A stretch of DNA of 42,898 bases from contig CANRGB010000011.1 in NCBI GenBank assembly GCA_947630005.1, positions 1-42,898 on the forward strand, given 5' to 3'. The notes beneath the pieces are model-generated. The model was not told the origin of the DNA and searched no databases. It saw only the letters and a list, made by a program, of their open reading frames with translations. This document shows, in pieces, positions 2,816 to 15,564 of the stretch. The position numbers and the translations under genes are program-made. The stretch's first letter is position 1. Every line of letters starts with the position of its first letter. Origin of the DNA: an uncultured Lachnospiraceae bacterium (GTDB lineage Bacteria > Bacillota > Clostridia > Lachnospirales > Lachnospiraceae).

Positions 2816-2850
2816 AAAAAGACCGCTCCCGCACACTGCGGAAAACGGTC
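2816..2850 (-). terminator. Terminator of the nitrogenase-like/hyp operon
   Basis: On the minus strand GACCG...CCGC-AGTGT-GCGG...CGGTC is followed by five T (plus-strand A 2816-2820). It lies 27 bp after the hypE stop codon and closes the long minus-strand operon. Confidence 0.8.
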
Positions 2851-2876
2851 ATTTAATTTTTACTCCCAACAGGTTC

Positions 2877-3884
2877 TCAGCAGATTCTCGGCAGAAGCTC
2901 TCCGCCCGGCTGCGGAAGCAGCGTCTGCGCCCCGATCTCCGTCGTCATAACGACCTTCCCGGAATTCTCTTCTGTCACTTCCCCGATCACTGCCGCTTTC
3001 GCGGAATATTTTCCTTTATGGAGAGTCTCAAGAAGGACTTCCGCTTTGTCTTTCGGGGCAATCACGACCAGCGTGCCTTCGTTGGCCAGATACAGCGGAT
3101 CGAGGCCGAGCATCCCGCAGACGCCGCGGACCGCGCCGCTCACAGGAAGCGCCTGCGCATCCAGAGAAATTCCGACGCCGCTCTCCGCGGCGATCTCATA
3201 GAGAACCGTTCCAACGCCGCCTCTGGTCGCGTCCCGGATCACATGAATCTCTTTTGTCGCCGCCAGCATGGATTCCACGGTCCCCCACAGCGGCGCGCAG
3301 TCGCTCTGAATATCCGCCTCGATGCCGAGATCCTCTCTTTCCAGCAGGATGGTGCAGCCATGCCGCCCGATATCCCCGGTGACGATCACCACATCGCCCG
3401 GCTTTGCAAAGGCGCCGGAAGTACACACGCCTTCCTCGATCCTGCCGATGCCCGCGGTCGTGATAAAGATATGATCCGCCTGTCCTTTTCCTGCGACTTT
3501 CGTGTCTCCGGCCACAATCCTCACGCCGGCTTCCTTTGCCGTTTTCTCCATGGACGCCGCGATCATCTCCAGCTTGTCCATCGGAAATCCTTCTTCTATA
3601 ATAAAGGAACAGGTCATATACAGCGGCTTCGCCCCCATACAGGCCAGGTCGTTCACCGTCCCGCAGATGCTGAGCTTGCCGATGTTTCCGCCGTTAAATT
3701 CATACGGCGATACAATAAAACCGTCCGTCGTCATGGCAATCCGCCCTTTTTCCACCGACAGTACCGCCGCGTCGTCCGCCGTAAATTCCGGATTGGAAAA
3801 ATGCGCCTGAAAAACTTCCCGGATCAGCTCCGCGGTCTGTCTGCCGCCGGCTCCATGGGCCAGCGTTACTTTCTTTTCTGACAT
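2877..3884 (-). CDS. hypE: HypE, carbamoyl dehydratase of Fe-cyanide ligand synthesis
   Basis: 335 residues, full length for HypE. It starts MSEKKVTLAHGAGGRQT and ends in the hallmark PRIC tail. The C-terminal Cys receives a carbamoyl group from HypF, and HypE then dehydrates it with ATP to a thiocyanate that donates CN to iron on HypCD. The PurM-like ATP-binding fold is visible (DDAAVLS, GGNIGKLSICGTVNDLACMG, GDTKV, DATRGGVG). The start at 3884 has a GAGG ribosome site. It is the last gene of the operon, 85 bp after hypD and just before the terminator at 2816-2850. All expected landmark residues appear present. Confidence 0.95.
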   Translation of the reverse strand: MSEKKVTLAHGAGGRQTAELIREVFQAHFSNPEFTADDAAVLSVEKGRIAMTTDGFIVSPYEFNGGNIGKLSICGTVNDLACMGAKPLYMTCSFIIEEGFPMDKLEMIAASMEKTAKEAGVRIVAGDTKVAGKGQADHIFITTAGIGRIEEGVCTSGAFAKPGDVVIVTGDIGRHGCTILLEREDLGIEADIQSDCAPLWGTVESMLAATKEIHVIRDATRGGVGTVLYEIAAESGVGISLDAQALPVSGAVRGVCGMLGLDPLYLANEGTLVVIAPKDKAEVLLETLHKGKYSAKAAVIGEVTEENSGKVVMTTEIGAQTLLPQPGGELLPRIC

Positions 3885-3969
3885 AAATCTCTTCCTCTTT
3901 TCCACTGTGAAAGCCCGGCGTCAAAACACGCCGAAAGCTCAGATCAAACTTCTTCCATTTATGGTGCCG

Positions 3970-5016
3970 CTACAGCTGATACTGATAATACGCGGAACAG
4001 GTTCCTTCGTTGGACACCATGCAGGCCCCGACCGGATGCTGCGGCGTACAGCCTTTTCCAAACACCTTGCAGTCGGACGGCAGGCATTTCCCCTGCAGCA
4101 CCTCGCCGCACCGGCAGGCCGGATTGGCTCTCCCTTCTATCTTTGGCAGCGCAAATTTTATCCGGGCGTCGTAATCCCGGTAAGCCGCCTTCAGCCGCAT
4201 GCCGGACATCGGAATAACACCCAGTCCGCGCCATTCCGTGTCACATTCTTCCATCACTTCTTTCATCAATTCGCGGCCGGCCGGATTCCCTTCGGGCCGC
4301 ACGACACGCGGGTAACAGTTGACGAAAAAGGACTTTCCCGTCCGCGATTTTTCAATGATCACTGCCAGCGCCGTCAGGATTTCCTTTGCGGTAAACCCGG
4401 CGATAACGCCGGAAATGCCTTCCTCCAGGGCCAGCCTGCGGCATTCTTCCTCTCCGGTGATGGCGTTTACATGCCCCGGATAAAGAAACGCGTCGGCGCT
4501 CCCTTTCAGCGCATGGTAAGCGTTCGGCATCGTCTTGTTGGCCGTCAGAATAGAGAAATTCGCAAGTCCCTGCTCCTTTGCCTTTTTGACTGCCAGACAG
4601 GCGCCGGGTGTCGTCGTCTCAAAGCCTACCGCCAGAAAGACCACCTGTTCTTCCGGATGAGCCGCGGCATAATCCACCGCGTCCAGAGGCGTGTAGACGA
4701 TCTTCACCTGACCTCCTTCCGCGCGTGCTCCGCCCAGGCTCATCTTCGTCCCCGGAACCCGGATCAGATCCCCGAATGTACAGACTGCCGCCTGTTTCTC
4801 CAGGGCCAGCATGACCGCCTCATCGATAAAAGATACCGGCGTCACGCACACCGGACAGCCCGGCCCGGAGATCAGCTCGATATTCTCCGGCAGAATCTTC
4901 CGGATTCCCAGGCGGAAAATCTCATGCGTGTGGGTTCCGCACACTTCCATGATCCTCAGCTTCGGCCCGTCATACGATTCAATGATTTCTTTCGCTGTTT
5001 TTTTCTTCTCTTCCAT
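3970..5016 (-). CDS. hypD: HypD, Fe-(CN)2(CO) assembly scaffold
   Basis: 348 residues. HypD carries a [4Fe-4S] cluster and, with HypC, holds the iron while two CN and one CO are attached. Family motifs are intact: MEVCGTHTHEI near the N-terminus, SGPGCPVCVTP, GFETTTP, and a C-terminal Cys-rich region with CRCGEVLQGKC, PSDCKVFGKGCTP and GACMVSNEG. The start at 5016 has an AGGA ribosome site; a longer upstream reading would run into repeat DNA. The 210-bp gap to hypC is filled by a 67-bp direct repeat, which is unusual inside a hyp operon. Confidence 0.95.
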   Translation of the reverse strand: MEEKKKTAKEIIESYDGPKLRIMEVCGTHTHEIFRLGIRKILPENIELISGPGCPVCVTPVSFIDEAVMLALEKQAAVCTFGDLIRVPGTKMSLGGARAEGGQVKIVYTPLDAVDYAAAHPEEQVVFLAVGFETTTPGACLAVKKAKEQGLANFSILTANKTMPNAYHALKGSADAFLYPGHVNAITGEEECRRLALEEGISGVIAGFTAKEILTALAVIIEKSRTGKSFFVNCYPRVVRPEGNPAGRELMKEVMEECDTEWRGLGVIPMSGMRLKAAYRDYDARIKFALPKIEGRANPACRCGEVLQGKCLPSDCKVFGKGCTPQHPVGACMVSNEGTCSAYYQYQL

Positions 5017-5035
5017 ATATTTCCTGTCCCCCGAA

Positions 5036-5191
5036 AAAATTTCACATTCCGCACGCAAAGCGCCGCGCAATCGAAGCGCATCCGATCAGCACATGCCCGT
5101 CAAAATTTTTGCATTCCGCGTGCAAAGCACCGTGCGGGCGAAGCACATCTGATCAGCACATGCTCATCAAAATTTTTACATTCCGCGCGCA
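5036..5191. repeat. 67-bp direct repeat between hypC and hypD
   Basis: CATTCCGC occurs at 5045, 5112 and 5179, exactly 67 bp apart, each preceded by an A/T-rich AAAATTTTT-like box. Two full copies and a third partial copy differ by scattered transitions. Each copy contains GATCAGCACATG. The repeat occupies nearly the whole intergenic gap and would be transcribed as part of the operon. Confidence 0.9.
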
Positions 5192-5226
5192 AAACGCCTC
5201 CCAGTTTAAGAGTCGGCCGCTTTGTC

Positions 5227-5436
5227 TCAGGAAAGCATCTCCAGCAGGTCGTCCGTCTCGCTCTCATCGTCCTGCGTTATTTTCGCGATGGCGACGCCTG
5301 CGTGAACCATCACGTAATCTCCCGGCTCCAGCTCATCCAGAAGCTCGGCCGATACTTCCCGCTTCGCGCCGGACGCGTCCACCACAGCCATACCGTTTTT
5401 CACTCCGACAACCTTTGCAGCCAGTCCTACACACAT
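5227..5436 (-). CDS. hypC: HypC/HupF-type chaperone
   Basis: 69 residues, the usual size. It starts MCVG, placing the essential Cys at position 2, and has the conserved LEPGDYVMVHAGVAI stretch with its His. HypC partners HypD, carries the Fe(CN)2(CO) unit and normally delivers it to a hydrogenase large subunit. An AGGAGG site precedes the start. The C-terminus is acidic (DDESETDDLLEML), as in many family members. No hydrogenase large subunit is encoded in this window, so the acceptor protein is an open question. Confidence 0.95.
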   Translation of the reverse strand: MCVGLAAKVVGVKNGMAVVDASGAKREVSAELLDELEPGDYVMVHAGVAIAKITQDDESETDDLLEMLS

Positions 5437-5594
5437 TTTACAAATCCTCCTCCTGTTTTTGATTCTGTCCGCCGCGTCCTTTGCTTTCTCATAAAAGAGC
5501 GCGTCTCTTCTGTTTTTATCATTTACTCCGTTTTTGTTCCTAATCCAAGCGCGGTATCCCGCCAGGCGCTCTCCGGCCCGTCTTCCGGAAAATC

Positions 5595-8090
5595 CTATTT
5601 TTTATCCGCCAGCGCGCACATGGCCGCCAGCGCCTGCCCGAGCGCAATCCCGCCATCGTTCGGCGGCAGAAGCCGGTGACGCAGTACCCGGAAGCCTTCC
5701 TGCGTCAGGCCTTCGTCGCACAGACGAAGCAGCAGCAGATTCTGAAATACGCCCCCGCTTAACGCGCAGACCCGAAGGCCTGTCTCCCGGGCCGCTCGCC
5801 GGCATCCTTCCAGAATCTGATCCGCCAGCAGCACATGAAACCAGAACGCCAGACGCTCCGGCGTCTCCCCTTCCAGCCGCTTTTCGATGAGCAGACGCAC
5901 CAGACGATCAGTCGGAAGCACCCACTGCGCGCTTCCCTGCTCCGACTGATGCGCTCTTTCGCCGGATTTGTGGTCCGTTTCCTTCGAGCCCACGCAGGAT
6001 ACGTATTCTGTTCCTGTTCGGCTCCCCGCAGATTCACGGCCCGTTTCCTCCGAGCCCCCGCAGGGCTCTCCGTCTTGTTCCAGCCGTTCAAGCTGCTCCC
6101 GCGCCTCCCGGCGTTCTCCCCGGAACGCTTCTTCTGTAAGGGAGGACGCGTACCGCTCCGCCCGGAACTGAAGAACCGTGGCCGCCTCTCCTTCAAAGGT
6201 CGAAGCTTTTCGGATCCCGAGAATGGCGCTCACCGCGTCAAAGAGCCGCCCGGCGCTGGTTGAGATCACGCAGTTCACATGCCGGCGGGCCATCTGCGCG
6301 TATACCTTCCGTGTCTTCTCGTCACAGAGATCCAGCCGGCCGACAATATCCGAAGCCTGTTCTTTGCAGAGCTCATTGATCAGAGAAACCGCGATCCTCC
6401 ATCCTTCCCTGGCGGAGGCGTCGCCGCCGATCTGGTCAAATGGCCGGATGCTTCCCAGCCGCCGGAATCCTTTCACCGAAGCCTCAAGAATCTCGCCGCC
6501 CCAGATCGTCCCGTCCGTTCCGTATCCTGTCCCGTCAAAGGAGACGCCGATCACCGGTTCCAGATAATCGTTTTCCGCCATGCAGGAAAGTATATGCGCG
6601 TAATGGTGCTGTACCTCGAGCACCGGAAGTCCCATCTCATGAGCTGCCGCCGTCGTATTATAGTTCGGATGCATGTCGCACGCGACAATTTCCGGTTCCG
6701 TCTCAAGGAGCTCCGACATTCTCCGGACCGATTCCCGAAGTGCCTGAACCGTCCGGAGGTCTTCCATATCTCCGACATACGGCGACGGATAGAACAGCTG
6801 ATTTTTCGCGATACAGAATGTGTTTTTCAGCTCTCCGCCGATGGCCGCCGCCTGCCCCTTAAACTCCCTGCTCATCATAAAGGGAAGCGGCGCATAGCCT
6901 CTCGAGCGCCGGATCATGTACGGCTCGCCCTTGTAAAAATCCATCACCGAATCGTCCGCTCTCAGACGGATCTTCCGATTGTGCGACAGAATCAGATCGC
7001 AGAAAGATGCGATCTCCTTCCCGGCATCCTCATCCGTCCGGCAGATCGGCGCCCCGGACACATTGCCGCTGGTCATGACAAACATGTCGGTCGTCATCCT
7101 CAGCCCGTCGTTGTAATCAAAAAGAAGCATCTGTACCGGCGCGTAAGGCAGCATCACGCCCACCTTCGGATTGTCCGGCGCTATGGAAGGCGCCAGGCGG
7201 CTTCCGTCCTTTCTGGGCAGCAGAATGATCGGCTTCTGATGGCCGCACAGCACTTCCTCCTGTTCCGGTCCGATCTCACATTCCGCTTCTGCCGTCTCCA
7301 GATTCCGCATCATCACGGCAAAAGGCTTCGCCGGCCTGTTTTTCAGTTTCCGCAGCCTCGCGACGGCCGTCTCGTTCGTCGCGTCGCAGCATAAATGGAA
7401 CCCGCCGATTCCTTTAACGGCCACGATCTTCCCGTCTATAATTGCCCGGCGCGCGGCCGTGATCGCCTCCCGTCCTCTCTCCGGCCGGCCAAGCAGATAC
7501 ACCTCCGGCCCGCAGTCGTTGCAGCAGACCGGCTGTGCGTCATAGCGTCTGGTCTCGGAATGGGTGTACTCCCATTCGCACTGCGGGCACATGGGAAACT
7601 CTCCCATGCTGGTACGCTCCCGGTCATAGGGCATCGCGTCCAGGATCGTCACCCGCGGACCGCAGGCGGTACAGTTGATAAACGGATGCATATACCGCCG
7701 GTTTTTCGGGTCATAAAGTTCTCTCGCGCAGTTTGGACAGGTGGCAATATCCGGCGACACGAAGATATCGCCCTCCTCTTTCTCACTCTCGATGATTTCA
7801 AACCGCTCGAAGGAGACGGACGGATCTTTGCAGTCCGCCACATCGATCTTCAGAACGGCGGAGCGCTCCGGCGGTCTTTCCCGCAAATCCTTCATAAACT
7901 GCTGCCGGCCGGCCTCGCTGCCCTGAAGGAAGATCTCCACATAGGAGCCCTTGTTCGCCACGCTGCCCGTCACATGGGCCGCGTCCGCGATGCGGCTCAC
8001 GAAAGGACGGAAGCCCACGCCCTGAACAATGCCGTAGACCCGCACGATCTGTGTTTTTTTCTTCTCTGTTTTCATATACGGGTTCTCCAT
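5595..8090 (-). CDS. hypF: HypF carbamoyltransferase
   Basis: 831 residues, slightly long for HypF, which uses carbamoyl phosphate and ATP to carbamoylate HypE. Domains in order: acylphosphatase-like (GIVQGVGFRPFV, about 18-105), two C-x2-C...C-x2-C zinc fingers (CPNC..CTAC and CPQC..CNDC, about 118-190), a YrdC-like domain (KGIGGFHLCCDA) and a Kae1-like C-terminal domain (HHYAHILSCM, FDGTGYGTDG, ALSGGVFQN). A low-complexity insertion rich in E, G, S and R lies near residues 655-710, encoded by imperfectly repeated DNA. Two starts are possible (8090 or 8075). It begins 24 bp after the preceding nitrogenase-like gene. Confidence 0.95.
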   Translation of the reverse strand: MENPYMKTEKKKTQIVRVYGIVQGVGFRPFVSRIADAAHVTGSVANKGSYVEIFLQGSEAGRQQFMKDLRERPPERSAVLKIDVADCKDPSVSFERFEIIESEKEEGDIFVSPDIATCPNCARELYDPKNRRYMHPFINCTACGPRVTILDAMPYDRERTSMGEFPMCPQCEWEYTHSETRRYDAQPVCCNDCGPEVYLLGRPERGREAITAARRAIIDGKIVAVKGIGGFHLCCDATNETAVARLRKLKNRPAKPFAVMMRNLETAEAECEIGPEQEEVLCGHQKPIILLPRKDGSRLAPSIAPDNPKVGVMLPYAPVQMLLFDYNDGLRMTTDMFVMTSGNVSGAPICRTDEDAGKEIASFCDLILSHNRKIRLRADDSVMDFYKGEPYMIRRSRGYAPLPFMMSREFKGQAAAIGGELKNTFCIAKNQLFYPSPYVGDMEDLRTVQALRESVRRMSELLETEPEIVACDMHPNYNTTAAAHEMGLPVLEVQHHYAHILSCMAENDYLEPVIGVSFDGTGYGTDGTIWGGEILEASVKGFRRLGSIRPFDQIGGDASAREGWRIAVSLINELCKEQASDIVGRLDLCDEKTRKVYAQMARRHVNCVISTSAGRLFDAVSAILGIRKASTFEGEAATVLQFRAERYASSLTEEAFRGERREAREQLERLEQDGEPCGGSEETGRESAGSRTGTEYVSCVGSKETDHKSGERAHQSEQGSAQWVLPTDRLVRLLIEKRLEGETPERLAFWFHVLLADQILEGCRRAARETGLRVCALSGGVFQNLLLLRLCDEGLTQEGFRVLRHRLLPPNDGGIALGQALAAMCALADKK

Positions 8091-8114
8091 TTATTTCTTT
8101 CCTGTCATGCTTCT

Positions 8115-9293
8115 TCAGACTTTATCCCCGGCCGCGTTCTCCGCCTCAAGCTCCCCGCTGACCGCGAAATGCGGCACATGCAGCCACATCCCTTTATAAT
8201 CCTTAAGAGCCCTTTTCAGCATCCGGTCTCCGACGATCAGGTCGTACTGCCCCTCCGCCACAAATTCCGCAAAGCTCTCCTCCGTGGTCAGATGCGCATC
8301 CTGCGGCTCCTGGAACTCCTCATCCAGAAGGAACCAGGTTCCCACCGTGATCTCGGCCTCTGACGTTTTCCGGATCTCTCCGCGTATCTCGTTGGCCGCA
8401 GCCTGCTGATGGACGACCAGGATCTTTTTTCCTTCGACCGTGCGAAGTTTTTCCGTTAAGGCTTCGTCAAGAAACGGATAGGCCATCCGGTAAGGCGTCC
8501 CGAACCGCTGTTCCAGATAGCGGGCCGCTTTCAGACCTGAAGGCGACACGACCAGATTCCAGGCGGCTTCTCCGGCCTTCCGGACCGTCTCCAGACCGTC
8601 CCGCATACCGTAGCAGAAAACCGGTCCGCAGCCCTTTCCGGCCAGCTTCTCCCGGACCATCCCGGCCGCGTCGAGACGGCTCAGATTCAGAGGCGTCATG
8701 CCGATCACGCCGACAGGATCTTTTGTCCGCTGTTTTTCATTTTCAGGCACATCGGAACGCTCCGGCCCGCCGTCTGTCCTCTTTTCCGTTCTGTTTCCGC
8801 CGGCCGCAAAGTTTTCTCTTTCCGTTTTGCTCCTGTCGGCCGTATCATCTTCCGCAAATTTCTGAAACAGGCCAAGCCAGGTGTCCGCCTCTCCCTCGTC
8901 GTAAAGCCGGGTCCCGGTACACTCGACCGTCAGCACCGGGAGTCCGCATTTCTTTTCCGCCATACGGGCCAGCGCCCTGAAATCTGTCGCGATCACCGCC
9001 GGCACAGGCGTTCCGATCAGGGCCGCGAAACCGGCGTCCAGCTTTTGGGCCGCGCTTTGAATCTTCTCCACCATGCGGTCGTCTCTCCCGAGGATCGCGT
9101 CCATATCCCGGAGCCCGGCGCTGAAAACCGCGCTTTTCCGGAGAAACCACCGCGGCTCGTCGAAACCGCAGATATTGCCGGTACACCCTCCGGCGTCGCA
9201 GATGATCGTCAGCCCGCCCATGTCATAGAGGACGGAAGCCGCGCCGGACTGATCCGGTGCAAACGGCGATAAATATTTCAGCAGTCCTTTCAT
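8115..9293 (-). CDS. Nitrogenase component 1-like protein, short subunit, set 2
   Basis: 392 residues, related to the short subunit of set 1 (11513-12703): both have LYxxGG near residue 22, a DAxGC motif at Cys37 and DEPRW near residue 45. The fold class is the nitrogenase D/K/E/N type of oxidoreductase. Unlike set 1 it lacks a Cys at position 19 but has Cys32 and Cys42 flanking Cys37. The third family Cys position reads GTPVPAVIATD, without Cys. A hydrophilic insertion of roughly 35-40 residues rich in E, R, D and G lies near residues 148-190. Its ATG overlaps the preceding stop by 4 bp, with GGGAGG 6 nt upstream. It probably forms a dimer with the 9290-10684 product. Confidence 0.8.
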   Translation of the reverse strand: MKGLLKYLSPFAPDQSGAASVLYDMGGLTIICDAGGCTGNICGFDEPRWFLRKSAVFSAGLRDMDAILGRDDRMVEKIQSAAQKLDAGFAALIGTPVPAVIATDFRALARMAEKKCGLPVLTVECTGTRLYDEGEADTWLGLFQKFAEDDTADRSKTERENFAAGGNRTEKRTDGGPERSDVPENEKQRTKDPVGVIGMTPLNLSRLDAAGMVREKLAGKGCGPVFCYGMRDGLETVRKAGEAAWNLVVSPSGLKAARYLEQRFGTPYRMAYPFLDEALTEKLRTVEGKKILVVHQQAAANEIRGEIRKTSEAEITVGTWFLLDEEFQEPQDAHLTTEESFAEFVAEGQYDLIVGDRMLKRALKDYKGMWLHVPHFAVSGELEAENAAGDKV

Positions 9294-10684
9294 ACGCTTC
9301 CTCCCGGAATCTTTTTCTCCCGCCGCTCCTTCTCTCCGGAAATCCCGTCCGGCTGGTCTGCGGCCGTTTTTCCTCTTCCCTGGGGTTCTCCTGGTTCCTG
9401 ACCGCCGCGCGCGGCCAGAAGCGCCTCAAACAGACGGCCAAGCCCCGCGTAGCCGAAGGGCTGCTCCTCCTGGTTCCACGGCACGTTCGGACAGCCCGGA
9501 TGGTAGAAAGCCGCATCCTGCCCGATCGTAACATCCACTTCAGAATCCCCGCGGTCATAGTTCAGCATGGTGGGCGACAGGTTGGAGTAAATGCGCGTAT
9601 TCGGACTTTTCTCCGCAATCTTCCGGATATAGACGAACTGGTCCGGTGTGACCGTCCCGTACATCTCCGTCACCTGATAGCCGTACCGAAGCAGAGCCAG
9701 AGACAGTTCAAACGCGTTTCCGTTCTGCCATTCCCCCACGGCGAACCGGGTATTCGGATACGCCGCCTTGAACGCCTCCACTTTTTCCCATGCCGCCTGG
9801 TACCAGGGGCTGTCGTCGATCATGGTTCCCAGCGCCCCTCCCAGCAGCTCATACTGCCGGTGTATCTTATCAATCTGGTAAAGTCTCGTCAGCTCTATGG
9901 AAGGAATTCCCAGACGCCTGCGGATATCCTCCGCCGCCGGGCGGCATTCCGGATTCAGCACGATATTGAAATTCGCCTCGGCCATGGACAGATATTCCTC
10001 AAAATCCCGGCACCGGGAAATCTCCCGGATCTCCTTTACGCCAAGTCCCCGCAGGATGGCATAAAGCTCCATATCCTCCATAAAAGGGGAAAACTCGCCG
10101 AGAAGATTGACCGCCGTCCGTTTCCTCGGCCTCTTTTCCAGAAGCTCGTACACGGTTTTGCGGACATGCACCATCGGGGGCATCCGCCCTTCTCTGGTCA
10201 GCGCGTACATATAGCAGGGCCGTACCGGGACGCCGGCCGCGTCCGCCGCTTTCCTGCAGACCCGCTCCATATCCGTCCCCAGCAGAGCGTCCACGCAGGT
10301 AATGCAGATCATCACCACCGTCGGCTTTTCCTCAAGGGAATCCACCACCTCGCGGACCGCCTGACTGATCTTGTTCAGATGCCGTCCGGTCACGATGTCC
10401 GTATCGTCCAGCAAAAGATAAAAGAAACGTTCCCGGTATCCCAGAGCGTTAAGCGCCGCCGTATTCCGGCCGCAGCAGCCCGGGGCCACCAGAAGCATCA
10501 CCGAACCCGGAACCGCGAGTCCGGCGCGTTTTACGCCAAAGCCCTGGGCTCCCGGCGAATTGAAGGCCAGGGTAGCCGGAGAGCTGTAGATCAGATGCCG
10601 GGATGACTGAAAAATATCCGGGATCCGTTCTTTTCCAAGGGCCGCCAGCTCGCCGGCGGTCATGCTGTCAACTGCTCTTTTCAT
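9290..10684 (-). CDS. Nitrogenase component 1-like protein, long subunit, set 2
   Basis: 464 residues. Landmarks: SSPATLAFNSPGAQ near residue 34 where NifD-type proteins have a cluster Cys, APGCCGRNTA at Cys70-71, ICITCVDALLGTD at Cys127/130 (the counterpart of the nitrogenase C-x4-IGDD motif), and NPECRPAAEDI later. The C-terminus ends in a basic, Gly-rich tail after about residue 430. It starts 37 bp after the second NifH-like gene with GGAGG 6 nt upstream, and its stop overlaps the short subunit start (ATGA). The pairing of long and short subunits resembles NifDK or NifEN. I cannot assign a substrate. Confidence 0.8.
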   Translation of the reverse strand: MKRAVDSMTAGELAALGKERIPDIFQSSRHLIYSSPATLAFNSPGAQGFGVKRAGLAVPGSVMLLVAPGCCGRNTAALNALGYRERFFYLLLDDTDIVTGRHLNKISQAVREVVDSLEEKPTVVMICITCVDALLGTDMERVCRKAADAAGVPVRPCYMYALTREGRMPPMVHVRKTVYELLEKRPRKRTAVNLLGEFSPFMEDMELYAILRGLGVKEIREISRCRDFEEYLSMAEANFNIVLNPECRPAAEDIRRRLGIPSIELTRLYQIDKIHRQYELLGGALGTMIDDSPWYQAAWEKVEAFKAAYPNTRFAVGEWQNGNAFELSLALLRYGYQVTEMYGTVTPDQFVYIRKIAEKSPNTRIYSNLSPTMLNYDRGDSEVDVTIGQDAAFYHPGCPNVPWNQEEQPFGYAGLGRLFEALLAARGGQEPGEPQGRGKTAADQPDGISGEKERREKKIPGGSV

Positions 10685-10721
10685 TTATTTCCTCCAAACA
10701 GCCGTCATTCCGGCTTTCCGT

Positions 10722-11519
10722 TCACTGTCTCTTTCCGAGGACTTTTTCCCCTGCTTCCGGCCTTTGCCCGTCTTCTTCCAGCAGCTTTTCTGCCAGCTCC
10801 AGATATTTCCGGCTCACCGGAAGATTCCGGTCTCCTTCGATCACCGTCTTTCCCTCATCCTCATACCGGATAATGTCCGGGCTTCTCGGGATATCCGCGA
10901 TGATCTCCAGATGATTCTCCTGCGCGAAGGCGCTGACTTTCTCCCACTCGTTTTCCACATTCCGCCGGTTCAGGATGATTCCCCGGACCGAAGCGTAGCC
11001 CCTGTCCTCAAAATTCAGAACCGCCGTATTGATGTTTTTCGCCGCGTACAGAGCCATCTTCTCCCCGGAAGTCACGATCAGGACCTGGCTTGCATAGCCC
11101 TCCCGGATCGGCGCCGCGAAGCCGCCGCAGACCACGTCCCCCAGCACATCGTAGAGCACCACGTCCGGCCGGTACGTCTCGAAAAGCTCCAGATCCTCAA
11201 GCAGACTGAACGTTGTGATGATTCCCCGGCCCGCGCAGCCAAGTCCCGGCGTGGGCCCCCCGGTCTCAATGCAGAGCACGTCTCCGAACCCTTTCGCCGC
11301 GATCTGCTCGATCTTCTCCGGCTCCTCGTCATATTCCCTCAGATAATTCATCACCGGCTTTACCGGATGTCCGCCCAGAAGATTGATCGTGGAGTCCGCT
11401 TTCGGATCGCAGCCGATCTGAATCACCTTTTTCCCGAGAACCGCAAAGGCCGCCGCCAGATTGCTGGTCGTGGTGGACTTGCCGATGCCGCCCTTTCCGT
11501 ACAGCGCAAGCTTTAACAT
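10722..11519 (-). CDS. NifH-like Fe-protein ATPase, set 2
   Basis: 265 residues, the size of NifH. It has the P-loop GKGGIGKST at residues 9-17, GCDPKADST, the cluster-ligand motifs GLGCAGRGI and DVVCGGF, and the NifH-type stretch LNRRNV. NifH-family dimers bind one [4Fe-4S] between two such Cys pairs and transfer electrons to a component-1 partner on ATP hydrolysis. It overlaps the preceding short subunit by 7 bp and has GGAGG 7 nt upstream. The neighbour set makes nitrogenase reductase of a diazotroph unlikely. Cfb, Bch/Chl or Mar reductases are alternatives, but none has this layout. Confidence 0.85.
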
Positions 11520-12703
11520 AATGAAACCTCCAGTTTTCTGTTGATAAGATTCGGATTCACCCGGTCATAGATGCGTCCGGAAAAGGCCTCGTGTGGCAGA
11601 GAAAAGAACCTCTGCCTCTCCCCGCACAGAACCCGGTACATCGGATCCGCGGCGACAAGCTCCGTCTCCGGGATGCGCGCCATCAGATCGTCCTCCTCCG
11701 GCGTCTGCAGATCGCCTTCCCGAAGCAGCAGATCCTCCGTATCCAGCGGACACAGCACGCGGGCGGATATCCCGCGGTCAAGCTCGACCGCCGCCGCCAG
11801 GGACGCGGAAAAGACGCTCTCCCCGATAAGGGAAAGCCGGGGAGAATCCGGATTTTTCCTGTCCAAAGGGCTGTCCGCCCGGCAGCGCTCCCGGTCTCTT
11901 CCGACGCGCCGGTAACTCACCAGATCCTGTCCGGAAGCCGCCGCCTCTCTCAGCATCCCTGCCAGCGCCTGCGAAAATTTTTCCCCGAAAGGCACTCCCA
12001 CGACATAAGGAATCCTGTAACGCTCTTTCAGACAGCGGGCCGCCGCCAGTCCTCCGTAGGAGACGACCAGGTTCACATGCGCACGTCCGGCCTGCGCGAT
12101 GTCCTCCAGCGTGCTCCCCATCGCCAGGCAGGCACCCGGCACCATGCCGTTCTCCCGGAGCCAGTCCTTTATGGAATCCACGCTTCCGTTCAGTGAGAAG
12201 TCAAGCGGGGTCGCGCCGAGAACGTTCACCGACAGGATCTCCGTCCGCTTTGCCGGGCCGGTGCAGAACCGGCGGACAACGGCTTCCAGCGCCATGGATA
12301 TGCCCTTCGTGTAATAATTCATGCCGTTGGCCCCACACCCCATGCAGGGAATCCCGGTCGCCTGTTCCGTCATGGCGGCGATCGCCGGGAGATCCGTCCC
12401 GATCATGTAGGGGATCGGCGCTCCCACGACGGCCACAAATTTCGGCTTCATCTCCAGCGCGGTCTCCGTCAGATCCCGGATCAGCTTCTCATCATCCCCC
12501 ATGATGGCCTCCATCTCGGAGATCGCCGATATATAGATCATACTGTCCATATCATACCAGCGCGGCTCGTCATGGGTCGTGTAGGTGGAGTTGCAGCCGG
12601 AAGCGTCATGCATGACCACCATCCCTCCCAGCTCGTAGAGGGCGGAACAAATACCGAATTCATCGGAGGAATACGTTGAAATCAATCCTGCTACCTGTCT
12701 CAT
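11513..12703 (-). CDS. Nitrogenase component 1-like protein, short subunit, set 1
   Basis: 396 residues. The N-terminus has FGICSALY with Cys19, DASGC with Cys37 and a DEPRW motif shared with the set 2 short subunit. The position where nitrogenase proteins carry their third cluster Cys reads [13 protein letters not shown], without Cys. A CMGCG motif lies near residue 124. A charged stretch near residues 265-300 is absent from typical family members. Its start overlaps the long-subunit stop by 4 bp (ATGA), indicating coupled translation and a heteromeric complex. The function is unknown; a catalytic or scaffold role are both possible. Confidence 0.8.
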
Positions 12704-14028
12704 ATACAGCTCTCACATCCCAATCCTTTTCTCTGAATCACTGTTTTCCGGTCTTTCCTGTGCAGAAACGCCTCCTGCATCAGACCGGCAAGCTGAACGA
12801 CGCCGTCATACCCGTAGAGACCGCCGCTCTCCACAATGTTGACAAAATAATCTGTACCGGTAAAGTAAGCCGCTTTCTGTCCCAGCGCCAGCACCTTTTC
12901 TTCCCGCTCCCGTTCCTGAAAACGCATCCACGGGCGGACGCAGGAGCTGATGCGGATCTCCGGAAAATTCTCCCGGATCCACAGAAAATCTTCCTTCTCC
13001 TCCGGCAGAAACGTGTCCGCGTAAATCTCGGTCACACGGAATCCGTAAGTCAGCAGAAGCCTCACAAGGCTCAGGATGCGGAAGGTCAGCGTGTAATCCA
13101 CCGCAATCGGCGTCTCCTTGATCAGCGCGCGGGCCGCCAGAAGCGCCTCCCTTTTCTGTTTTCTCAGCGGTTCCTCGTCCATCTCCGGAAGATGAAGCAT
13201 CCCGGCCAGCTTTCGGTAGGCTCCGGAGAGCTCTTCGTCGTCAAATGTAAACGGCAGATAGAGATAGGGCTGATGAAGCCGCTTCTCAAGATCTTCCGCC
13301 GCGATCCGGGCAAGGGGTTCATAGAAAAGATTCATGCCGGCCTGTCCCATCGCCAGATAGTCCTCAAATGTACGACAGTCGTGAATACTCTGAAATACGT
13401 AGCCTCCGCTTTCCAGCATGCGGACCAGCTCGCAGCTTCTGCTGACTGGCAGGTTGCTCCCGATCAGATTGATCTTCCGGGAATCTTTCGGCCCGTCCTC
13501 CAGCATGCTGTAAAGCTGCATCCGCATTTTCTGGTCCGGCGTCAGACCGCTTTTGCGGAGCGTCGGTATCATATAACAGTCCGTAAAACGGATATCCGGA
13601 AAACGTTCCCTCAGCGCCGCAAACACCTGATTCTGATCGTAAGCCAGGAAAAAATGCTGACAGCTGATAAAAAGAAGCACCGCCCGCGGCCTGTAGGGAA
13701 GTTTCTCAAGCACATCCGTCACTCCCCCGATCATAAGCTCTTCCATCGTGCCGTCCAGCACGTTTTCCTCCCGGATGATGACCGATGAATAGCGGTCCAT
13801 CGCGTTCATCTCCGCCGCCGTCAGCACGACGCCGCGCAGACAGCCCAGCGCGCAGACAAAGATCTGATGGGACTCAGGAATCAGCATTCCTGTATGAACA
13901 ATATTCCAGGTCCCTCTGGCAGGCGAACTGTACTCCAGCCCTTCCTGAAAAGGCGCCGGCCAGGAGGCCTCGCGGATCTTTACGACAGCGCCGGGGTGAT
14001 CCGTCTCCCGTTGTATTCGTTTCAGCAT
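12700..14028 (-). CDS. Nitrogenase component 1-like protein, long subunit, set 1
   Basis: 442 residues. Landmarks: YSSPARGTW near residue 33, FVCALGCLRG (Cys59, Cys63), LLFISCQHFF (Cys123) in the position of the third family Cys, and a C-terminal SGGLYGYDG that matches the nitrogenase alpha-subunit region around SGPYHGFDG but without its cofactor-ligand His. The last residues, GLGCESCI, add two more Cys. GGAG lies 9 nt upstream of the ATG. It follows the first NifH-like gene across an 89-bp gap containing a strong hairpin. Distinct from the set 2 long subunit, so the two sets are diverged paralogues rather than a recent duplication. Confidence 0.8.
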   Translation of the reverse strand: MLKRIQRETDHPGAVVKIREASWPAPFQEGLEYSSPARGTWNIVHTGMLIPESHQIFVCALGCLRGVVLTAAEMNAMDRYSSVIIREENVLDGTMEELMIGGVTDVLEKLPYRPRAVLLFISCQHFFLAYDQNQVFAALRERFPDIRFTDCYMIPTLRKSGLTPDQKMRMQLYSMLEDGPKDSRKINLIGSNLPVSRSCELVRMLESGGYVFQSIHDCRTFEDYLAMGQAGMNLFYEPLARIAAEDLEKRLHQPYLYLPFTFDDEELSGAYRKLAGMLHLPEMDEEPLRKQKREALLAARALIKETPIAVDYTLTFRILSLVRLLLTYGFRVTEIYADTFLPEEKEDFLWIRENFPEIRISSCVRPWMRFQEREREEKVLALGQKAAYFTGTDYFVNIVESGGLYGYDGVVQLAGLMQEAFLHRKDRKTVIQRKGLGCESCI

Positions 14029-14051
14029 TTTCCCATCTCCATATTCTGACT

Positions 14052-14106
14052 GATGCCAAAGCCAGAAGGCCTTTCGCTCCCTGATGCGCTGCGGCCTTCC
14101 GGCATC
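14052..14106 (-). promoter_or_regulatory. Intercistronic hairpin between NifH-like and long subunit genes
   Basis: GATGCC (14052-14057) pairs with GGCATC (14101-14106), and inside it GAAGGCC pairs with GGCCTTC. There is no T run, so it is more likely an RNA-stability or processing element than a terminator. It would favour a higher level of the upstream NifH-like message, as is known for nifH relative to nifDK. Confidence 0.6.
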
Positions 14107-14117
14107 CTGTTCTTATC

Positions 14118-14885
14118 TTAAGATTCATCCGCCGCGTGCTGCCGCGAAACCACGGTGTCCGCCAGCTCCCGGAAAACCGCCGCCATTTCGCTGTCCGGGA
14201 AAGCCTCCATAACCGTTTTCTTCATGGTTTCCGCGTCCGTCACCAGCTCGCTCCGGTCAATCATTCCGACGATCGAGGTCTGAAGGTCCCCGCACAGCGT
14301 CTGCACCTTCGCCTCTTCCTCCTTCACGTTCCGCCGGTTCAGGATCAGTCCGCCTAGCCTGGCGTAACCCCGCCCCTTAAAATTCTCAATCGCCATCGCG
14401 ATATTCGCCGCCGCGTAAATCGACATATTTTCCCCTGACGTCACGATCAGCACTTCCTCGGCATAGCCGCTGCGCATGGGCATGGAAAATCCCCCGCAGA
14501 CTACGTCCCCAAGGACGTCGTAAAACACCACATCCGGCTGAAAAGTCTCATACGCGCCTTTCGCGGCGAGCTTCTCCAGCGCGGTGATAATTCCTCTCCC
14601 GGCGCAGCCCAGCCCCGGAACCGGTCCGCCTGCCTCCGCGCAGATCACGCCGCCGTAGCCGGAACAGGTGATCTCCTCCAGCGCAAACGCGTCCTTTTTT
14701 CTGCGCACCGTTTCCAGTATCGTCGGCAGAGGTTCCCCGTGCCGCAGCGCCAGCGTGGAATCCGCCTTCGGATCGCAGCCGATCTGCATCACCCGAAGCC
14801 CCCGCTCTGCCAGCGCCGCGGACAGATTGGAGACGATCGTGGACTTGCCGATTCCGCCTTTTCCGTAAACCGCAATTTTTTTCAT
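14118..14885 (-). CDS. NifH-like Fe-protein ATPase, set 1
   Basis: 255 residues starting [16 protein letters not shown], with [18 protein letters not shown] and DVVCGGF carrying the two cluster Cys, followed by [10 protein letters not shown] as in NifH. The start at 14885 was chosen because the P-loop then begins at its normal place and GAGGAAG lies 5 nt upstream, overlapping the stop of the regulator gene 10 bp away. It presumably reduces the 12700-14028 / 11513-12703 pair, although exchange with the second NifH-like protein is possible. The C-terminus is short and ends in an acidic tail. Confidence 0.87.
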
Positions 14886-14895
14886 ACGTACTTCC

Positions 14896-15141
14896 TCATA
14901 TCTTTGAATAGATCGTTTTTGAACTGACACCCTTTACCCGGCCGATCTTTCCGCCCAGCGCGTTGATGATATCGTTCGGCGCGTCCAGTACAATACTGAT
15001 GATGTTCACGTTCCGCTCCCGGTATGGAATTCCCATCCTTCCGATCACATACATGCCATAATCATGCAGGATATCATTGATCTCACCCGTAGCGTCGATA
15101 TCCTCCACGATAATTCCGATGATCGCAATCCTTGTATCCAT
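14896..15141 (-). CDS. TM1266-like hydrogenase-system regulator (ACT/NikR-like fold)
   Basis: 81 residues, starting [14 protein letters not shown] and containing [20 protein letters not shown] and [22 protein letters not shown]. This matches the small iron-only hydrogenase system regulator family (TM1266), a ferredoxin-like domain related to the NikR C-terminal region and usually found beside [FeFe]-hydrogenase maturation genes. AGGAGG lies 7 nt upstream. Here it is the first gene of an operon that encodes no [FeFe]-hydrogenase, which suggests that it senses a metal or cofactor state for the nitrogenase-like system. The regulatory role is known only by family association. Confidence 0.8.
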
Positions 15142-15257
15142 CTTCCGTCCTCCTGTATCCGTGTTCAAAACAGAACGTTTCGTCTGCGTGCAGTCCGGAA
15201 ACATTCCGCTTCCTTTCGGCGTCATTCTCCTCCTGTCAATTCAGGGCGGAGCGCGCA

Positions 15258-15425
15258 GCACCCGCCGGAGGCTTTTTGTCGCAGGACGAAATTTCCTGCG
15301 AGAATAAAGAATGTGCCTTTGGCACATTCTCGCGCCGAGCGCGGCTGCGAAAGCAGCATTTTCCATGCACGCGCTCGTGCGCACCCGCCGGAGGCTTTTT
15401 GTCGCAGGAAGAAATTTCCTGCGAC
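15258..15425. repeat. Duplicated hairpin-bearing repeat upstream of the regulator
   Basis: A segment of about 44 bp (GCACCCGCCGGAGG..., with a CGCAGGA...TCCTGCG palindrome) occurs at 15258-15301 and again at 15381-15424. Between the copies are a GAATGTGCC-TTT-GGCACATTC hairpin and a GCTGC-GAAA-GCAGC hairpin. The palindromes have T on the 5' side and A on the 3' side, so they are not terminators. It sits in the transcribed leader of the nitrogenase-like operon. Confidence 0.85.
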
Positions 15426-15450
15426 AAAAAAAGCGCATCAAAAGATGCGC
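15426..15450 (-). terminator. Leader terminator (possible attenuator) of the nitrogenase-like operon
   Basis: On the minus strand GCGCATC-TTTT-GATGCGC is followed by seven T. It lies about 80 nt downstream of the predicted start site and about 285 nt before the first gene. Upstream leader bases 15492-15498 (AGATGCG on the minus strand) can pair with the 5' arm and would prevent the hairpin. A 7-codon frame MADRRIF (15438-15461) runs into the hairpin, with AGGTGG 13 nt upstream. Confidence 0.75.
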
Positions 15451-15535
15451 CTGTCTGCCATAAAAGTATAGAATCCACCTAAATCAATACACGCATCTTC
15501 AATCTCAATACGGAATTTCAATCTCAGATGTTTTT

Positions 15536-15564
15536 ATCATACCACAAAAAAAGTCCCTGTACAA
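15536..15564 (-). promoter_or_regulatory. Predicted promoter of the nitrogenase-like/hyp operon
   Basis: On the minus strand TTGTAC (15559-15564), a 17-bp spacer and TATGAT (15536-15541). The leader to the first start codon is roughly 390 nt. Apart from this promoter, the leader and the repeat, the 15142-15710 gap holds no gene I can support. Confidence 0.65.

Follow-up and report, generated by a model that had tools for sequence, protein, structure and literature searches.

The window analysed here is a stretch of 42,898 nucleotides from an uncultured Lachnospiraceae bacterium (GenBank assembly GCA_947630005.1, contig CANRGB010000011.1, positions 1 to 42,898 of the forward strand). On its minus strand, at 2816..15564, lie a gene for a TM1266-type regulator, two sets of nitrogenase-like genes, each encoding a NifH-like ATPase (H1, H2) with a long (L1, L2) and a short (S1, S2) component-1-like subunit, and hypF, hypC, hypD and hypE. 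Open reading frames (ORFs) and profile matches bear out what an earlier note on this DNA had described: all eleven genes are there, run in one direction and follow the order that it gives. The operon is probably a HydG-independent replacement for the radical S-adenosylmethionine (SAM) enzyme HydG in the maturation of [FeFe]-hydrogenase, judging from genes for HydE and HydF that stand beside its core in relatives and from the near-absence of HydG in the genomes that carry it. The earlier note had envisaged a free-standing enzyme with its own cofactor; the adjacency of HydE and HydF and the near-absence of HydG point to assembly of the H-cluster instead.

HydG makes Fe(CO)2CN from tyrosine, and HydE and HydF finish the [2Fe] unit. 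To our knowledge, HydE, HydF and HydG have been treated as the route to the H-cluster.

Maturation genes in the carrier genomes

Carriers were counted in a sample of 295 genomes of the order. There are 16 of them, in three families: the window's own genome, 13 genomes with an L2 relative at 54–62% identity, G238 (44%) and G151, in which only L1 and S1 are visible, at a contig edge. The L2 relative of G084 is in two pieces, with 54 and 69% identity. Scanning one genome per species found 477 stretches that encode an L2 relative, and the best 80 of these were analysed. Scan carriers include Clostridium ljungdahlii, C. ragsdalei, C. carboxidivorans, C. drakei, C. luticellarii, Eubacterium ramulus, Faecalicatena contorta and an Anaerostipes, as well as Coriobacteriaceae, Atopobiaceae and Lentisphaeria assembled from metagenomes; relatives of the operon span Clostridia, Coriobacteriia and Lentisphaeria. 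With 50 further carriers the number examined rises to 66. No locus of one set recurs in the other at ≥94% identity, and among the 80 scan loci no pair has 1 kb in common at 97%, so the 66 carriers are distinct; genomes reached through their loci come with no completeness figures.

HydG scores above its cut-off in 134 of the 295 genomes of the order and in none of the 16 carriers. Among the HydE-positive genomes of the order it is found in 0 of 15 carriers vs. 131 of 141 non-carriers (Fisher p 1.1e-14, a figure that overstates independence since the genomes are related). Two of the 50 further carriers, C. drakei and C. thailandense, have it. HydE is above the cut-off in 156 of the 295 genomes, in 15/16 carriers of the order sample and in 49/50 further carriers (64/66), and HydF was found in 15/16 carriers, the window's own genome included. 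By these profiles the HydE and HydF components of [FeFe]-hydrogenase maturation are retained and the HydG component is nearly always missing. HydA passes its cut-off in 12/16 and 48/50 carriers, and the three H-cluster motifs are intact in each of the 20 HydA genes that were read, from 19 carriers.

Gene content was counted in 95 L2-containing stretches: the window itself, 14 of the order sample and 80 of the scan. HydE and/or HydF was found in 22 of the 50 stretches that offered room; in 21 of the 50 it lies on the same strand, scores at least 150 bits and is at most 2.5 kb from a core gene. In the relatives of one family HydF and HydE are the two genes directly before H1. Two loci scored with NCBIfam gave 556.7 and 501.3 bits for HydF (cut-off 325.6) and 561.6 and 545.7 bits for HydE (cut-off 254.6).

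On HydE trees the carrier label must change at least 9 times among 63 rows and at least 13 times among 86 rows, which indicates that the switch happened repeatedly. The HydE proteins of 43 carriers and 20 HydG genomes have 77 near-invariant positions in common and show no carrier-specific residue. HydE therefore probably receives the same substrate from either source. The idea that HydE has diverged because of a different substrate was rejected for want of any carrier-specific residue, three positions being less conserved in carriers.

Several observations weigh against the replacement of HydG by the operon. Those three HydE positions are conserved in HydG genomes and vary, conservatively, in carriers. 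A pair test that controls for relatedness on starred branches of the tree only gave 7 independent pairs, with HydG going the opposite way in 5.3 of them on average and the same way in 0.2; with rows not randomly drawn, the median sign p of 0.06 lies in the right direction and is not significant alone. C. drakei (L161) and C. thailandense (L133) hold both the operon and HydG. HydA is not above the cut-off in six of the 66 carriers (G000, G238, G281, G287, G296 and G334), and its presence elsewhere is weak evidence, since HydA occurs in 218 of the 295 order genomes vs. 156 for HydE, so that at least 62 genomes have HydA without HydE. HydG is likewise missing from ten non-carriers that have HydE, four of which belong to the genus g42 and are 85–99% complete; its loss thus does not require the operon. 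In the window's own genome (82.8% complete) HydF is present, but neither HydG nor HydE was found, and the HydA-like match is weak and below the cut-off; the inference rests on relatives. In the nearest of these (L082–L084, L2 at 89–90% identity), HydE is present and no HydG is above the cut-off.

Alternatively, the operon could make another part of the H-cluster, such as the dithiomethylamine bridge or a reductant for HydE, while an unrelated enzyme does the job of HydG. The available part of PMC9431212 offers atypical radical-SAM genes as HydG candidates in acetogens, a proposal that also counts against the operon as the replacement, and the ten non-carriers without HydG also count in favour of this alternative. 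However, the cyanide-making HypEF pair is, by known chemistry, precisely the activity lost with HydG. Moreover, when the 50 further carriers were searched with the HydG profile (E up to 1e-20), 12 of them, including C. ljungdahlii and C. ragsdalei, had no hit, and 36 had only hits below the cut-off, all of which stop short of the profile's C-terminal end. We consider this alternative unlikely and retain the operon as the candidate replacement.

In three g42 loci (L076:8046-12297, L077:5948-10199 and L078:3623-8529) the genes for TM1266, HydE and HydF are followed by one for a 580-amino-acid protein. The protein of L076 is similar to B12-dependent radical SAM methyltransferases, with a KedN5-like match of 97.8 bits that is below the cut-off. 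Profile and homologue searches of the g42 genomes found no HydG, HypD or L2 relative. The B12-type radical SAM-like gene after hydE-hydF is possibly a second HydG replacement.

Conservation of the gene set and its proteins

Near L2, hypF is present in 80 of the 81 stretches with at least 2.5 kb downstream, the exception being L049 of G238, whose hypF sits elsewhere on the same contig, in L048. All four hyp genes occur in 57 of the 58 stretches with at least 8.5 kb, L048 of G238 being the exception. L1 with S1 was found in 48/50 stretches with room, H1 in 44/50 and TM1266 in 30/50. The core genes lie on one strand in 50/50, though their order varies, and recurrence in several orders on a single strand puts the arrangement far beyond chance. 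A survey of hypCDEF beside close homologues of the nitrogenase-like genes was a check proposed in the earlier note. Pairwise distances of nitrogenase-like and Hyp proteins across 30 genomes correlate with r of 0.47–0.88, vs. 0.09–0.44 for the same proteins against HydE, which lies in the operon's stretch in 8 of the 30. From this comparison the cassette appears to evolve largely as a unit against the host background; the co-occurrence and the correlated evolution together uphold the view that the two halves form one system.

H1 is not found nearby in L045, L052, L106, L127, L142 and L145, where a distant second copy was not searched for, and 4 of the 48 stretches holding L1 and S1 show no nearby H1. 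These loci suggest that a single NifH-like protein can serve both pairs. NifH itself serves both NifDK and NifEN.

In G238, L2 and part of S2 are fused in one ORF of 592 amino acids (L049:7625-9403), and L1 stands with hypD-C-F about 16–17 kb away (L048:1668-6744), a reduced and divergent form of the operon. Spread by plasmids was considered and rejected: 116 plasmid records match L2, all at <60% identity.

HypF, HypD and HypE score above the curated cut-offs (Table 1), and the R-I-C terminus of HypE, the HypD cysteines and the MC start of HypC are in place, which supports the link to Fe-CN/CO chemistry that the note had drawn. HypD and HypE keep residues shared with the [NiFe] type. The system nevertheless differs from the HypABCDEF maturation of [NiFe]-hydrogenase in that the operon has neither HypA nor HypB, no [NiFe] large subunit was found in half of the sampled carriers, and its HypD proteins form a separate clade. 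The HypD tree separates all 72 rows of the system from all 21 [NiFe]-type rows (support 1.0), and the system clade has conserved cysteines of its own (C97, C158, C210, C276 and C329), none of which occurs in more than 10% of the [NiFe]-type rows. The N-terminus of HypC reads MCVGL in 11 rows of the system and MC-V/L/I-A in 17 other rows. By these sequence features the Hyp proteins look dedicated to the system.

These data also bear on whether the operon is a variant of [NiFe]-hydrogenase maturation in which the nitrogenase-like proteins supply CO or electrons to HypCD. HypFCDE is the known machinery for the [NiFe] Fe(CN)2CO unit, and Table 1 of PMC9431212, in the part available, gives group 1a [NiFe]-hydrogenase in eight acetogens. 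PF00374, the profile of the [NiFe] large subunit, finds a short match (frames of 361–382 amino acids) in 8 of the 16 carriers, seven of them with at most one HypD and G238 with two; in some genomes the Hyp proteins may therefore serve both hydrogenase types. The acetogen listing, these matches and such a shared use are points against the reading as a HydG replacement. On the other hand, PF00374 has no match in the remaining 8 carriers, including the window's own genome and the single-contig G269, whereas it matches in 40 of 40 other HypD genomes tested. HypA is absent in 7/16 carriers, the second HypD/HypE of G238 adjoins that genome's own [NiFe] large-subunit gene, the HypD clade and the HypC start in the rows compared are separate, and the HydG pattern would be left unexplained. 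The [NiFe] variant is thus highly improbable.

The four component-1-like subunits (L1, S1, L2, S2) belong to the nitrogenase component-1 superfamily by fold and by PF00148 (Oxidored_nitro; 44.2, 107, 100.3 and 53.2 bits, cut-off 28.6). Their scores reach at most 64.4 bits for NifE (cut-off 505.1), 33.1 for NifD (653.55) and 57.6 for BchB (490.35). The two NifH-like proteins give 322.9 and 298.8 bits with the NifH equivalog TIGR01287 (394.35), 320.1 and 288.1 with CfbC NF033200 (402), 189.3 and 201.1 with BchL (345.15), and 171 and 189.1 with BchX (331.2). By the curated cut-offs tested (Nif, Bch and CfbC; Mar was not among them), the proteins lie outside the characterised nitrogenase-like families. 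In the component-1 tree, which has long branches and a misplaced S2 row (L127, 14% of columns filled), the subunit clades were used and not the deep order.

Invariant cysteines are C59, C63, C123 and C441 in L1, C37 in S1, C70, C71, C130 and C225 in L2, and C37 and C42 in S2. In the alignment C63 and C123 of L1, C71 and C130 of L2, and C37 of both S1 and S2 fall on cysteines of NifE and NifN/NifK. The column of the NifD cysteine binding the FeMo-cofactor (FeMoco) is a gap in the aligned rows of L1 and L2. Both pairs appear to keep the cysteines of the interface [4Fe-4S] site, and because the FeMoco-position cysteine is missing, neither looks like a FeMoco-type catalyst. NifEN is a nitrogenase-like cofactor scaffold, and DPOR (BchNB/ChlNB) is a tetrapyrrole reductase. 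The new pairs differ from both in identity (9–18% by structural alignments), in scores far below the family cut-offs, in occurring as two paired copies with hyp linkage, and in the absent FeMoco-position cysteine. By analogy with DPOR, they look like electron-delivering scaffolds with an open cavity.

A self-contained enzyme with its own CN/CO-ligated iron cofactor, unrelated to [FeFe]-hydrogenase and using one pair as scaffold and the other as catalyst, is a further alternative. The two paralogous pairs recall NifDK and NifEN, they come nearly always with hypFCDE, and they fall below the family cut-offs tested; a division into one catalytic and one scaffolding pair is possible. Such an enzyme is at odds with HydE and HydF adjoining the core in 21 of 50 stretches, with the frequent TM1266 gene, with the near-exclusion of HydG and with the nearly constant presence of HydE in carriers. 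Nor does the neighbourhood help it. Clustering of neighbouring ORFs across the gathered loci gave ten families, each in 4 to 20 loci. In five of these the example members are encoded opposite to the core, with no gap or almost none between them and it, and these families are read as antisense ORFs. Pfam matches of a single member from each of four others indicate an ABC transporter, a cytidylate kinase-like protein, a MatE transporter and a LysR regulator. In this clustering no additional gene, such as one for a transporter or a substrate enzyme, proved widely conserved next to the core. We regard the self-contained enzyme as quite unlikely and keep to a role in H-cluster assembly.

A proposed route and its relation to acetogens

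In known systems HypF and HypE convert carbamoyl phosphate to a thiocyanate on HypE, and HypCD holds iron with CN and CO. By that chemistry, the HypF and HypE of the operon would make cyanide from carbamoyl phosphate, and its HypC-HypD would carry an iron ion and assemble an Fe-CN/CO unit. With ATP as the driving force, acting by way of the NifH-like proteins and the interface [4Fe-4S] cluster, the nitrogenase-like complexes would carry out the low-potential reductions and remodelling that yield a synthon of the Fe(CO)2(CN) type, the usual substrate of HydE. The [2Fe] subcluster would next be built and placed in HydA by HydE and HydF, whose genes lie next to the operon or at another site. What each pair reduces, and where the CO comes from, we infer only as a guess: CO2 may be reduced to CO on HypCD-derived iron, or one cyanide may be exchanged for CO. 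The classical product of HypCD is Fe(CN)2CO and not Fe(CO)2CN, which tells against this scheme.

Taken to its full extent, the scheme would be a tyrosine-free route to the H-cluster, in which the complexes reduce CO2 (or the carbon of carbamoyl or cyanide) to CO on iron delivered by HypCD and so give Fe(CO)2(CN) for HydE; machineries of the [NiFe], [FeFe] and nitrogenase types would be merged, and HydG would have been replaced many times. This extended version is put forward tentatively. As compared to maturation by HydE, HydF and HydG, the product (a CO/CN-iron unit, by our proposal) would be alike, HydE and HydF are kept and the TM1266 regulator is shared; the difference is that carriers are nearly always without HydG, which HypFCDE and two nitrogenase-like complexes would replace.

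The available part of PMC9431212 reports HydE and HydF in all eight acetogens examined, while hydG was not found by known motifs in five of them (C. ljungdahlii, C. ragsdalei, C. carboxidivorans and two others). It finds HypCDEF in all eight and HypAB in three, with two copies of HypC/D/E in C. carboxidivorans, and cites an [FeFe]-hydrogenase of C. autoethanogenum as purified and characterised. In the same text, HydE and HydF without HydG, given trace or added CO/CN, activate the hydrogenase weakly, so a ligand source other than HydG is chemically plausible. Its authors ask whether acetogens have unidentified ligand-insertion mechanisms. The operon is present in the three hydG-less species named above and is thus a direct candidate answer to that question.

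A link to nitrogenase-like genes was not found in that part of PMC9431212, where the word "nitrogenase" occurs once. The open-access PubMed Central literature, to the extent that its text was available, yielded no link of nitrogenase-like genes to HydG or to hydrogenase maturation. In the available text of PMC9004356, a transposon screen of C. autoethanogenum, the terms "nitrogenase" and "maturation" are absent; in that of PMC8003979 and PMC10418091 both kinds of terms occur in an unrelated context (DPOR; a reference to methylthio-alkane reductase).

If the proposal is true, the operon explains the missing hydG of syngas acetogens, which the available part of PMC9431212 reports and leaves unexplained. 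It would also provide a second gene set for producing active [FeFe]-hydrogenase, suggest that CO and CN can come from something other than tyrosine, and assign a role to nitrogenase-like proteins that are uncharacterised. Apart from acetogens, many Lachnospiraceae of the gut carry it, as do Coriobacteriaceae and Lentisphaeria assembled from metagenomes.

Layout of the operon and single-set relatives

The features of the operon are collected in Table 1. Adjacent called genes overlap by 4–35 bases or are separated by gaps of 24–158 bases. From the appearance of the alignments, the probable starts of H1, hypD and hypE are corrected to about 14885, 5016 and 3884, respectively.

Table 1. Genes and a promoter-like site of the operon, with the matches on which each assignment is based
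Feature	Position	Strand	Basis
Weak promoter-like site 5' of operon	15536..15563	-	9/12 matches; not above chance for region
TM1266-type regulator of iron-only hydrogenase systems	14896..15225	-	TIGR03959 111.4 bits (cut-off 60.8)
H1, NifH-like ATPase	14118..14930	-	PF00142 (Fer4_NifH) 297.1 bits; below NifH, BchL, BchX and CfbC cut-offs
L1, nitrogenase component-1-like long subunit, 442 amino acids	12700..14028	-	PF00148
S1, nitrogenase component-1-like short subunit, 396 amino acids	11513..12703	-	PF00148 107 bits; invariant C37 on NifN/NifK cysteine
H2, NifH-like ATPase, 265 amino acids	10722..11519	-	PF00142 287.9 bits; below NifH, BchL, BchX and CfbC cut-offs
L2, nitrogenase component-1-like long subunit, 464 amino acids	9290..10684	-	PF00148 100.3 bits; invariant C70, C71, C130, C225
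S2, nitrogenase component-1-like short subunit, 392 amino acids	8115..9293	-	PF00148
HypF, carbamoyltransferase (cyanide pathway)	5595..8090	-	TIGR00143 735.8 bits (cut-off 466.1)
HypC, Fe-CN/CO scaffold chaperone, N-terminus MCVGL	5227..5436	-	PF01455 80.1 bits (cut-off 28.5)
HypD, scaffold	3970..5070	-	TIGR00075 390.6 bits (cut-off 192.8); cysteines common to [NiFe]-type HypD kept
HypE, carbamoyl dehydratase giving thiocyanate, C-terminus R-I-C	2877..3905	-	TIGR02124 425.4 bits (cut-off 251.6)

The single promoter and single terminator given in the earlier note are not established. Promoter-like sites in the scanned region are at chance level (10 vs. 6.5, sd 3.2, in shuffles), and the terminator-like site at 2844-2826 overlaps the called start of the next ORF (2852-2181). 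The hypC-hypD junction holds three direct repeat copies of 42 nucleotides with a period of 67 nucleotides (window 5035-5210). Upstream of the operon, window 15258-15431 contains two 51-nucleotide repeats that are 94% identical, one of them with a perfect inverted repeat of 15 bp.

Relatives with a single nitrogenase-like set were found at eight loci (L055–L062), where L1 has 27–32% identity to the H1-L1-S1 type. They resemble the operon as relatives of H1-L1-S1 and differ from it in that no hyp genes were found near any of the eight, in stretches of 18–20 kb, and in the FecBCD-type transporter present in most: seven of the eight, L056–L062 of Clostridia, adjoin genes for a periplasmic binding protein, FecCD and an ATPase (Pfam names for L056 and L061). 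The best plasmid match to L2 (28%) is also to a set of the transporter type, on a Treponema plasmid. The Treponema saccharophilum plasmid pTS1 (L232:6001-12297) carries a single-set operon with transporter genes, near which no hyp genes were found. At L055:1423-5943 a single nitrogenase-like set without a transporter adjoins a cytochrome P450-like gene.

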